Shown: piece after piece, positions 60,882-64,000 of the stretch
Layout of the letters: each line of letters opens with the position of its first letter
Position numbering within the stretch: position 1 is the stretch's first letter
NCBI RefSeq assembly: GCF_020911925.1
Contig: NZ_CP087134.1
Coordinates: 5,580,001-5,644,000 of the forward strand
Length of the DNA: 64,000 nt
Direction: 5' to 3'
Origin: Flavobacterium cupriresistens
Lineage (GTDB): Bacteria; Bacteroidota; Bacteroidia; Flavobacteriales; Flavobacteriaceae
Notes under the pieces: generated by a model
What the model was told of the DNA's origin: nothing
What the model saw: only the letters and a program-made list of their open reading frames with translations
Database searches by the model: none
Translations under genes and position numbers: made by a program

Positions 60882-61159
60882 AAAATGAAATGTACATTTT
60901 GGTTTTTCATAATTTACTGAATATCAATTTGTTGCTATTTTTTTAAGGCAATGCATGAAGCAACCCATAAGGCAACCCATTGATGATAATTTGTTTAGAA
61001 AATCACTTTACAAGACGTATATCAAGGAATTGCTATCTGTTATTTTTGTAAAATGCGCATTTCATTTTTAAAGGCCAATGCTGAAAACAACTTGCGAAAG
61101 CTTGGTTTTGCTGGCTTTTAGGGTAATATCATAATTTTCTAAAATGTACATTTCATTTT
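60882..61159. mobile_element. MITE-like element with 19-bp terminal inverted repeats
   Basis: The left end AAAATGAAATGTACATTTT (60882-60900) is the exact reverse complement of the right end AAAATGTACATTTCATTTT (61141-61159). The 278-bp interior has no ORF and a third, altered end-like copy (AAAATGCGCATTTCATTTTT) at 61050. A related TTGAAATGTAC lies just outside at 60864. I could not identify target-site duplications, so the element status is provisional. Confidence 0.5.
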
Positions 61160-61179: not shown

Positions 61180-61698
61180 TTATTTTTTCTTTTTGCTTAC
61201 TTGTTTCTTTTTTTTAGAAACCTTGTTTAACTTTTTAGTCAATCGTTTTTCAGTTTCTTCAATAGTACAATCGTAAGTTGCATTTAGAGTTTCAAGTTGT
61301 GTCTCTTTTAATACTTTTTGTGCTTTTTTGAATTTTTTCTGGCTTTCTAAAAGCAGTACTTTCTTTAAGAGAATCTCCACTTTGTTGATTCCTTTAATCG
61401 TAAGTGCAAAATCAATTAACTTCATTGCCTCCTCGTAATCTTCATTCAAAACCAACGTATAAATATAATACGAATACACTTCTATTGCATGAATATTAAT
61501 CGAAATAGCTTGTTGAAAATACTGTTTAGCCTCCTCATATTTAAATAATTGATCGCTCAAAACCTGACCATATAAACATAAAGCCATTGTGTTTTTATCA
61601 TCATAAGACAAGGCATATTCTAATGATTCTATGGTTTCTTCCAACGAATAAGGATAGCTGTCTAACGCCTGAAAAAGATATTTATCTACTGTTTTCAT
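61180..61698 (-). CDS. TPR-like protein with lysine-rich tail, linked to prfH/rtcB
   Basis: The 172-aa soluble product is helical with two or three TPR-like pairs: TMALCLYGQVLSDQLFKYEEAKQYFQQAISI at about 38-68, and VYSYYIYTLVLNEDYEEAMKLIDFALTI. The C-terminal 20 residues are almost all Lys/Ser (KKLNKVSKKKKQVSKKKK). The gene starts 36 bp after prfH, on the same strand, so it is probably in the operon. The basic tail could contact RNA or the ribosome (inference). No assigned function. Confidence 0.75.
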   Translation of the reverse strand: MKTVDKYLFQALDSYPYSLEETIESLEYALSYDDKNTMALCLYGQVLSDQLFKYEEAKQYFQQAISINIHAIEVYSYYIYTLVLNEDYEEAMKLIDFALTIKGINKVEILLKKVLLLESQKKFKKAQKVLKETQLETLNATYDCTIEETEKRLTKKLNKVSKKKKQVSKKKK

Positions 61699-61734
61699 CT
61701 ATTATTTTGTATCGGAACTCAAAGCGTACTGTTA

Positions 61735-62424
61735 TTATTCCCGATCGGAATAATCTTCTCTTTTTAACCTTTGTCGTTCCTGTTTGTAATTTTTTGTTTC
61801 TTTTTGTTTTTTAAAATCCGAACCCTGAAAAATCCGAATCGGATTTCCTCTCTGAATTTGCAGCTGGTTCATCCATTGCGCCTGAAATTCAGCTTTAAAC
61901 TGTTTTACCGTTTCTTCTTTAAATTTTTGCAATAACCTTTCCGTTGCCAGTTTTTTATTCTGATGTTGTGAACGGGAGTCCATCGAAACCACACTGATTC
62001 CGGTTGGGATATGAGTTGCTCTCACGGCCGAACTTACTTTGTTTACATGCTGTCCTCCGGCACCTGAACTTCTCATGGCTTGGTATTGAATGTCATTCTC
62101 GGAAATCTCGGTTGCCGTCGATTTCTCCATTTCAAAGATGCCGATAAACCAGTTTTTACGCTTGTGCAATTTCCTAAACTGACTTTGTCCAATCCATTGA
62201 ATTGTACCCACCCACGAATTCACAAAATCATTCAGATTACTACTTTCCAGTAAAACTGTTGCTGTTTCTACGGTTCCATTTTCAATTCCGGTTTCTCTCT
62301 GAAGCATTGTTGTTTTTATGTTCTTCTCTTTTGCTTCTTCTATAAAAGTTTTTAAAACCTGAGCTACAACCCAGCTGCATTCAGCCGGGCCACGCCCTGA
62401 TGTTATTTGAATTATTTTTTCCAT
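61735..62424 (-). CDS. prfH: Peptide chain release factor H
   Basis: The 229-aa product is a short class-I release-factor homologue: it begins [20 protein letters not shown] as PrfH proteins do, and has the peptidyl-hydrolysis motif GGQ at 123-125 in [19 protein letters not shown]. It lacks the codon-recognition domains of RF1/RF2. Work on E. coli PrfH with its linked RtcB shows that PrfH releases the peptide from ribosomes whose 16S decoding-centre rRNA has been cut, allowing RtcB to religate it. Here rtcB lies 15 bp upstream on the same strand. Confidence 0.95.
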
Positions 62425-62439
62425 AATTTTTATCTTTTT

Positions 62440-63831
62440 TTAGCGGTCCATTCTCACGATTTTTGGTGTGAATGTTCCGAGAACATCAACCAATTCGTTT
62501 TGGTTTGCCATTACTTTATTTATGTCTTTATAGGCCATTGGAGCTTCATCAATGTTTCCACCAATCAGACTCACGTCATTTGCTTTCAAGACTTTATTGA
62601 TCTCACTTTGCGTGAATGATTCTTTGCATTTTCTACGAGAAAAAAGTCGTCCCGCGCCATGTGAAGCAGAATTTAAACTCTCCGCATTTCCTTTGCCTTG
62701 AACAATAAATCCCGGAGCCGTCATCGAACCCGGAATAATTCCCAGTTCACCAACATTGGCCGGAGTCGCTCCCTTACGGTGTACGATGGCTTCTTTGCCA
62801 TTTACGATTTCTTTCCACGCAAAATTGTGATGGTTTTCGATTGTCACAACAACACGTTTTCCTATCGCTTTTGCAATTCGACGGTGAATATCATCATGAC
62901 AAGCTTTAGCATAATCACCGGCCAAATTCATTGCCAGCCAATATTCCTGACCGTCATGTGTATTCAAATCCAACCAAGCCAAATGCTGTACATTTTTTGG
63001 CAACGGACATTGCTTAGTAGCCAGATACGTATAATGTTTGGCGATATTGGCACCCAATCCTCTTGAACCACTGTGCGATAACACTGCAAAATATTCCCCA
63101 ACACCTATTTTCCATTCGTTAAGCGGATTGGTAATCTTTGCGATTCCAAACTCAACAAAATGATTTCCGCCACCTGATGTTCCCAATTGTTTGTAGGCTT
63201 TAGTCAATAGGTTTTTCAGAAGTGGAATATCCTGAAACTCGCTTCGGCTAAACAATTCATGATCGGCTCTTATCGTATGTGTTTCATACATTCCAAATTT
63301 GGTATTATCTTTTAAGATGGCCTGTAACTGATGTTCTTTTCCTTTGAAAAAACTAGCCGGAATATCAAAAATGGACAAACTCATTCGGCAGCCGATATCT
63401 ACACCAACCCCGTACGGAATAACCGCATTGTCTGTTGCAAGTACACCGCCAATTGGCAATCCGTAACCTGAATGCGCATCGGGCATTAGAGCTCCAGCTA
63501 CTGAAATCGGTAATTTTAAAGCATCATACAACTGATACTTGGCCTGCTCGTCGATTTCATTCTCTCCGAATATCGAAAACGGAGCCCTTGTATTATTGAG
63601 CTGATGCATTCTTACTTGCACCGGATTAACTAATCCTTCAGCCACTTTCCCCCAAGTTCCGTGTCCTGTAAATTTTTCAGGAAACAACAAAACTTCTTTG
63701 GCTTCGGTTAGGATACTTTCTTTTTTTTCTCTTTTTCTGTATCGGTTGATTTGCCCTAAAGCAATATTGATACTGTTATTTTTTGGAAAGCCTATTTTAA
63801 TCAGGTCTTTTCCGGATAATTTATTTCCCAT
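62440..63831 (-). CDS. rtcB: RNA ligase RtcB
   Basis: The 463-aa product has every catalytic residue expected of RtcB: Asp145 and Cys148 in VDIGCRM, His224 in GGNHF, His253 in HSGSR, His334/335 in ENHHNF (metal ligands) and the nucleophile His391 in SHGAGR that takes GMP. The C-terminal EAPMAYKDINKVM block is also typical. RtcB joins 2',3'-cyclic phosphate and 5'-OH RNA ends. The pairing with prfH indicates the RtcB2 group tied to repair of cleaved ribosomal RNA rather than tRNA splicing. Its ATG overlaps the stop of an upstream gene by one base. Confidence 0.96.
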   Translation of the reverse strand: MGNKLSGKDLIKIGFPKNNSINIALGQINRYRKREKKESILTEAKEVLLFPEKFTGHGTWGKVAEGLVNPVQVRMHQLNNTRAPFSIFGENEIDEQAKYQLYDALKLPISVAGALMPDAHSGYGLPIGGVLATDNAVIPYGVGVDIGCRMSLSIFDIPASFFKGKEHQLQAILKDNTKFGMYETHTIRADHELFSRSEFQDIPLLKNLLTKAYKQLGTSGGGNHFVEFGIAKITNPLNEWKIGVGEYFAVLSHSGSRGLGANIAKHYTYLATKQCPLPKNVQHLAWLDLNTHDGQEYWLAMNLAGDYAKACHDDIHRRIAKAIGKRVVVTIENHHNFAWKEIVNGKEAIVHRKGATPANVGELGIIPGSMTAPGFIVQGKGNAESLNSASHGAGRLFSRRKCKESFTQSEINKVLKANDVSLIGGNIDEAPMAYKDINKVMANQNELVDVLGTFTPKIVRMDR

Positions 63832-64000
63832 TATATATGTTTTTCTTCTAAATACATTTCATATATCGTATTCAGATTTGTTGTTTTTAAGTCATTATTG
63901 TGCTTTACTTTTTCCAAGCTCCAATAATAGTAGTCTCCTTTGCTCCTCGTTTTATAGATCTTCCATCCTAAATTCCGATTCTGTATGTAATTTTCGATAA
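63831..64000 (-). CDS. C-terminal part of an unknown gene upstream of rtcB (cut by window end)
   Basis: An open frame enters from the window edge and ends at TAA 63833-63831, overlapping the rtcB ATG by one base (TAATG). About 55 codons are visible; they include RNLGWKIYKTRSKGDYYYWS and TNLNTIYEMYLEEKHI. I do not recognise it. The overlap shows that it is translated as part of the rtcB-prfH operon. Its start and identity lie outside this window. Confidence 0.75.
   Translation of the reverse strand, partial: IENYIQNRNLGWKIYKTRSKGDYYYWSLEKVKHNNDLKTTNLNTIYEMYLEEKHI

Follow-up and report, generated by a model that had tools for sequence, protein, structure and literature searches.

The operon and its core pair

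We analysed a 64,000-nucleotide stretch of Flavobacterium cupriresistens DNA (the window; positions 5580001-5644000 of a one-contig 5.74-Mb genome), at the end of which a four-gene operon lies on the minus strand in the order UP (the upstream gene), rtcB, prfH and a TPR gene. Its core is the known PrfH-RtcB pair, and the operon would probably free and re-seal cut ribosomes; beyond the window, upstream of UP, lies a predicted leader attenuator through which stalled ribosomes appear to turn the operon on. The window holds the 3' part of UP (63831..64000, minus strand); the full gene, completed beyond the window, spans 63831-64574 in window numbering and encodes 247 residues, its complete frame standing at L004:4832-5575 (minus) in the neighbouring stretch of the same genome. 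Then follow, on the same strand, rtcB for a 3'-phosphate RNA ligase (62440..63831; 463 residues, active-site motifs intact), prfH for peptide chain release factor H (61735..62424; 229 residues, GGQ at 123-125) and the TPR gene (61180..61698; 172 residues; PF14559, 29 bits with a cut-off of 25). The last 25 residues of the TPR protein form a Lys-rich tail (61183..61257, minus strand) of net charge +11. The UP stop TAA and the rtcB ATG have one base in common (TAATG), and the gaps are 15 bp between rtcB and prfH and 36 bp between prfH and the TPR gene. An earlier note on this DNA had described four genes on one strand with these places, gaps and overlap, an intact GGQ in prfH and a Lys-rich tail on a TPR-like gene; open reading frame (ORF) coordinates and sequence bear all of this out, and reading the upstream gene past 64000, which the note had proposed as a check, gave the 247-residue protein.

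The PrfH of the window scores 238.3 bits against TIGR03072 (cut-off 166.65). It is without domain 1, the alignment to RF2 chains beginning at about residue 131, and it ends in a basic tail of about 30 residues beyond the RGNP motif. For RtcB the PF01139 score is 274.7 bits (cut-off 27), and the protein is the sole match to that model in its own genome. The catalytic residues were said to be complete: the motifs that match the Pyrococcus enzyme (DIGC at 145-148, GNH at 222-224, SHSGSRG, HHN and SHGAGR at 390-395) are all present, including the residues that we take to be catalytic. Against TIGR03073 (release_rtcB), the model for PrfH-linked RtcB, the protein stays below the cut-off (133.6 versus 271.8 bits). 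Archease is the usual RtcB helper; no match to it was found in the own genome and none over the cut-off in 239 Flavobacterium genomes, the single match under the cut-off being in G003 (22 bits).

RtcB lies directly upstream of PrfH in the window and in 159/159 distinct annotated prfH loci. In some relatives the gene between rtcB and prfH encodes a protein rich in Cys, with motifs like those of zinc ribbons and a basic end, and in others an NTase-like protein (weak PF14907 matches). The earlier interpretation of the cluster as a ribosome-rescue and rRNA-repair module is thus backed by family membership and by the constant RtcB-PrfH pairing, and as a whole it is only partly supported. Records labelled phage or viral also have rtcB directly before prfH (L278, L283, L285, L287-L290, L292, L294 and L296); the source may be a prophage, a real phage or contaminating bacterial DNA.

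A predicted leader attenuator

The predicted attenuator occupies 64691-64849 in window numbering. An ORF of 28 codons (MFVLNFTSQNIASGLDSVGMCLRGFSQS; 64751-64837) lies about 175 nucleotides upstream of UP and is followed by an intrinsic terminator. Region 1 (ACGAAGACA), before the leader start codon, pairs with region 2 (UGUCUUCGU, codons 21-23); region 2 (CUUCG-U-GGCUU, codons 22-25) complements region 3 (AAGCCCGAAG) with one bulge; and region 3 is the 5' arm of the terminator. Three alternative helices can be drawn, 1:2 around the leader start, the antiterminator 2:3 and the terminator 3:4, with predicted energies of −13.5, −14.8 and −18.5 kcal/mol, respectively, for the window operon. The layout of an attenuator is present, with a short ORF, an overlapping antiterminator and an intrinsic terminator before the first gene. 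Rfam, at gathering thresholds, gave no match to the leader in the window or the adjoining stretch of the own genome.

A search pattern that required the CGAAG and CTTCG cores matched before 136/159 distinct prfH operons, and had no match elsewhere in 1.85 Mb, mostly operon neighbourhoods (3.70 Mb over both strands). A covariance model recovered ten of the 23 loci missed by the pattern, eight of them at 93-148 bits (in several of these the start codon is GTG or the terminator is altered) and two from Weeksellaceae at 59-61 bits, which brings the prfH operons with a leader to 146/159. Twelve of the 13 remaining loci are from Sphingobacteriales, Chitinophagaceae or unplaced Bacteroidetes and had no covariance-model match with E under 0.4; the thirteenth, L142, is cut by a contig end. 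When 881 kb of the own genome (a 15 % sample) were scanned with the same model, the window operon was the sole strong match (124 bits, the next being 30). Overall, an RNA switch appears to stand before nearly all such operons examined in Flavobacteriales.

The pattern made no demand on the five upper pairs of helix 2:3; all five form in 114 of the 135 distinct leaders, and four of them are kept in a further 12. Regions 2, 3 and 4 vary in concert in some leaders (for example AAACC/GGTTT/GGGTTT and AAGTC/GACTT/GGACTT). Over all rows, none of 5000 shuffles paired as well in the upper part of 2:3, and in the terminator helix 6 cells are changed on both sides, a number reached in 0/500 shuffles. 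The stability of 2:3 exceeds that of other leader windows in 135/135. The three predicted helices are conserved and in part compensated.

The leader in other settings

The element is not confined to prfH operons. Weaker matches (36-54 bits, the lowest near the background matches of 30-35 bits) lie 230-320 nucleotides before PcfJ in 7 of 11 PcfJ-TPR loci; the leader also precedes two of four intact lone TPR genes (L089 and L091, 61-65 bits) and three loci of a divergent UP branch (51-80 bits). The element has chromosomal surroundings of at least two kinds, with bshC or a response-regulator gene as its neighbour, and precedes whichever gene comes first, be it UP, rtcB, PcfJ or a lone TPR gene.

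Sphingobacteriales and kin have another short ORF ahead of UP in 16 loci (L154, L156, L158, L159, L161-L164, L167, L168, L170-L173, L175 and L176), mostly of the form MTExxYISPLSLIA, with two of the 16 quite divergent. It stands before UP operons and lone UP genes and may be another leader. On an E. coli plasmid record, a 15-codon ORF (MTNPLSMTLCRPFQD) behind AGGAGG precedes rtcB-prfH (L398:1191-1238).

Distribution of the partner genes

The co-occurrence of the genes was counted in one set of 398 Flavobacterium genomes, with E up to 1e-6 for UP, the curated cut-off for all PrfH and E up to 1e-10 for the TPR protein. UP was found in 53 genomes, PrfH in 131 and the TPR protein in 139. Among the 131 prfH genomes, a TPR gene lies within 1.5 kb in 122 and UP within 6 kb in 51 (at least two of which, G132 and G198, have UP in pieces); both partners are present in 50. 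The earlier reading was to be given up if most rtcB-prfH loci were without either partner; this is not the case, just 8 of the 131 genomes being without both. Among the annotated distinct prfH loci, 136/159 have a TPR gene; the shares of UP in that set are biased, because 80 of its loci were obtained via UP (the best 80 of 103), and the 51/131 of the census is unaffected.

Viewed from UP, 51 of the 53 genomes have prfH within 6 kb and the remaining two have rtcB, whole or in pieces, adjoining UP; UP, RtcB and PrfH are all in pieces at the G172 locus, and G075 has UP and RtcB paired, with no prfH. Of the 17 genomes that have the TPR gene and no prfH, 11 have it adjoining PcfJ and four hold it as a lone gene; the others are one fragment and the broken locus. 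In the 11 PcfJ-TPR loci (L094, L095, L098-L100 and L265-L270), an intact RtcB stands between the two genes in 8, RtcB is in pieces in one, and none was present in the stretch examined in two.

The upstream gene

No Pfam family matched UP at E up to 10, tested on a longer reading of 266 residues. The predicted fold has a confident core and no clear structural match, and the median isoelectric point is 9.8. Among the best 80 of 103 matches, the closest named relatives are from Flavobacterium poyangense and F. circumlabens, and named relatives occur in Flavobacterium, Sphingobacterium, Pedobacter, Mucilaginibacter, Chryseobacterium and others. By hhalign (probability 90 %) and a profile search, the family also takes in a divergent branch of about 229 residues in other Flavobacteriaceae. 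This branch is present in 3/236 genomes of the order, in 3/3 with prfH no more than 4.2 kb away and on the same strand, prfH itself being present in 50/236. G474 (L271, L274) has the divergent branch twice upstream of rtcB, the copies lying 0.76 kb from each other.

UP is also found without PrfH, in 7 UP-RtcB loci and 3 loci with UP alone (L160 and L182, in which UP lies at a contig end, were left out of these counts, and the L182 genome has PrfH elsewhere). In the ten genomes concerned PrfH was not detected at E up to 1e-36, some of them being metagenome assemblies, where genes can be missed, and RtcB was present in 10/10. In Flavobacterium sp. DG2-3, UP and RtcB form one frame of 724 residues (L118:4968-7142; a single record and a possible assembly error). 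UP looks like a partner of RtcB and goes with RtcB rather than with PrfH. The earlier suggestion that the upstream gene senses the cut found no direct support, and the leader attenuator, outside the window, is the better candidate for a sensor.

The trees of the two genes disagree. A clade of eleven loci on the RtcB tree (support 97) splits into two places on the UP tree, and forcing these loci together on the UP tree was rejected (approximately unbiased test, p 0.0002); the group had been defined by RtcB identity after a pairwise table had revealed the discord. Most likely, the split reflects an exchange of UP between operons while RtcB stayed in place.

The TPR protein

The tail of the TPR protein was compared in frames of more than 150 residues and more than 190 bits. 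Of 142 distinct tails, 139 have a net charge of +5 or more, with a median of +10 against −7 for the body, and it is the charge that is conserved rather than the sequence. The intact lone genes (L089, L090, L091 and L092) include one, L090, with upstream remnants that match zinc-ribbon and prfH models; between the lone genes of G130 and G333 the ratio of non-synonymous to synonymous substitution rates (dN/dS) is 0.09. In 175 of 178 distinct PrfH proteins a long basic tail goes with a TPR gene (135) or a short tail with its absence (40), with three exceptions. That the TPR protein grips the PrfH tail was set aside and stays no more than an idea, each trait changing only 4 times on the tree, too few for a test, and the median p from 3 independent pairs being 0.5.

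Downstream of the TPR gene, a perfect 19-nucleotide inverted repeat lies at 60882-60900 and 61141-61159 of the window, its arms 240 nucleotides apart, with a third, degenerate copy at 61050-61068. Across the 5.74 Mb of the genome, the 18-nucleotide core of the repeat has no other copy, even when one mismatch is allowed.

Interpretation and rival explanations

We judge it likely, on these comparisons of sequence, that the locus is the Flavobacteriales form of the PrfH-RtcB operon for ribosome rescue and RNA repair, that a leader-peptide transcription attenuator controls it, and that a ribosome stalled on the leader turns it on. Working ribosomes would finish the leader and cover region 2, so that the terminator forms; if no ribosome initiates, helix 1:2 would form and the terminator would again stand. 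A ribosome that starts and then stalls early would mask region 1 and leave region 2 free to pair with region 3, and RNA polymerase would read through. A ribosome with a cut decoding centre is of the kind expected to stall early on the leader. PrfH would then free the nascent peptide and RtcB re-seal the cut RNA. The basic UP protein may assist RtcB, either as a partner that binds RNA or as its specificity subunit, and the Lys-tailed TPR protein may be an adaptor that keeps the enzymes on the ribosome. Attenuation of this kind would make the operon respond to just the fault it repairs.

Several observations weigh against this proposal. The leader has no known stall motif and its middle is variable, and 12 prfH operons from outside Flavobacteriales are without it. 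Only two or three of the five upper 2:3 pairs are present in 9 of the 135 distinct leaders; when the 15 distinct arm combinations are counted, 76/5000 shuffles pair as well, so that the independent evidence for 2:3 is real but modest. Two of five measures for the terminator helix are not above shuffles (both-side-changed pairs, 49/500; pair types, 500/500), and the 135/135 for 2:3 stability is partly selected, because all three helices share the CGAAG/CTTCG core that the pattern required. UP and the TPR protein have no solved sequence relatives that would indicate their function. The TPR gene is not strictly a partner of PrfH, since it is also found with PcfJ-RtcB where PrfH is absent, and on its own in 4 genomes. 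Finally, the RNA substrate, 16S rRNA or tRNA, is not readable from sequence.

An attenuator that senses something other than ribosome damage, for example one charged tRNA or one antibiotic class, is unlikely. Such a signal would fit the leader-peptide attenuation of amino-acid operons mentioned for F. psychrophilum, in a transcriptome paper whose main text does not name rtcB or prfH (PMC9723704), and the response of PA5471.1 of Pseudomonas aeruginosa to ribosome-targeting antibiotics (PMC12057347). However, no run of a single amino acid exceeds three residues in 110 distinct leader peptides, 6 of which reach that length, and the genes under control serve release and RNA ligation, not biosynthesis.

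That the module mends tRNA or mRNA cut by anticodon nucleases, not rRNA, also seems unlikely. In its favour, RtcB joins 3'-phosphate and 5'-OH RNA ends in general; colicin E3, for its part, cuts 16S rRNA. The NTase-like gene between rtcB and prfH in relatives is of a type tied to the repair of RNAs such as tRNAs (Burroughs and Aravind, PMC6514570), but the window operon is without it, and the RtcB2-PrfH pair of E. coli ATCC25922 protects against colicin E3 (PMC9223846).

It is quite unlikely that UP is a passenger, or an addictive toxin restrained by the operon, and not a partner of RtcB. UP is not near prfH in 80/131 prfH genomes, is in pieces in G132, G172 and G198, and lies away from RtcB in three genomes. 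It is also the fastest-changing gene: against five chosen close relatives dN/dS is 0.17-0.29 for UP, 0.07 for the TPR gene, 0.03-0.05 for PrfH and 0.01-0.02 for RtcB (ranges only where unsaturated, dS being saturated in 3/20 comparisons). These values are nevertheless well under 1; UP-RtcB persists in the 7 loci without PrfH, and all 53 Flavobacterium genomes with UP have either prfH within 6 kb or rtcB beside it. Least probable is an independent small gene with its own terminator and the operon promoter behind it, for which the 120-270 nucleotides (approximately) from leader stop to first gene would leave room and the last nine codons, protein-invariant with only silent changes, would suit a functional small protein (18 loci each), but the element recurs in at least two chromosomal settings before four different first genes, and upper region 2 tracks changes in the terminator arm, which a separate gene would not need.

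Beyond the stall-gated operon itself, we propose more tentatively that one ancestral attenuator may govern UP-RtcB-PrfH-TPR, UP-RtcB, PcfJ-RtcB-TPR and lone TPR genes, which would give the armZ-prfH logic a second lineage, and that UP may be a fast-evolving, exchangeable specificity subunit of RtcB that replaces Archease. If true, stalled or damaged ribosomes would switch on their own repair in Flavobacteriales, and UP, TPR and PcfJ would be marked as parts of one stall-responsive repair set. The conserved three-helix leader makes the induction of PrfH-RtcB outside Pseudomonas directly testable.

Comparison with known systems

The earlier note had placed the two extra genes outside the described system. 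That view is outdated: around RFH-RtcB, Burroughs and Aravind (2019; PMC6514570) already list, in the part of their text available, a TPR gene and charged, uncharacterised genes without homologs, for which they propose scaffold and rRNA-binding roles. Such partners are known in kind because the accessory gene types resemble theirs, down to the NTase-like and zinc-ribbon genes between rtcB and prfH in relatives of the present operon. The same text gives gene types and no leader, and the likeness of UP is one of description only. The two partners are thus only partly new, the pair and the partner types being known. In the open-licence literature searched, we found no description of an operon-specific attenuator in Flavobacteriales, shared with PcfJ-RtcB-TPR and lone TPR genes, or of the exchange of UP.

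The E. coli ATCC25922 RtcB2-PrfH pair, as far as described in PMC9223846, is alike in having rtcB followed by prfH, a release factor without domain 1 and an RNA ligase of the same family. It differs, in one record, by a PrfH of 204 residues and by the absence of an annotated UP or TPR gene adjoining the pair, and the window RtcB reaches only 133.6 bits on TIGR03073. The bmrCD attenuator of Bacillus subtilis (PMC4191407, in its available part) shares ribosome-mediated transcription attenuation before a stress-response operon, but controls a drug transporter, not repair genes.

A published counterpart in regulation is known from P. aeruginosa, where, in the sections available (PMC12057347), the PA5471.1 leader is proposed, with more study said to be needed, to control armZ by attenuation on impaired ribosomes, armZ being an RtcB-like gene that adjoins PA5470/prfH. 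Alike are the leader peptide, the proposed attenuation upon ribosome impairment and the RtcB-like gene beside prfH; the systems differ in that P. aeruginosa belongs to another phylum and ArmZ is also an anti-repressor of an efflux regulator, and they are likened by description, not by leader sequence. With the operon of F. cupriresistens and its relatives, repair operons under stall-sensing attenuation would be represented in a second phylum.

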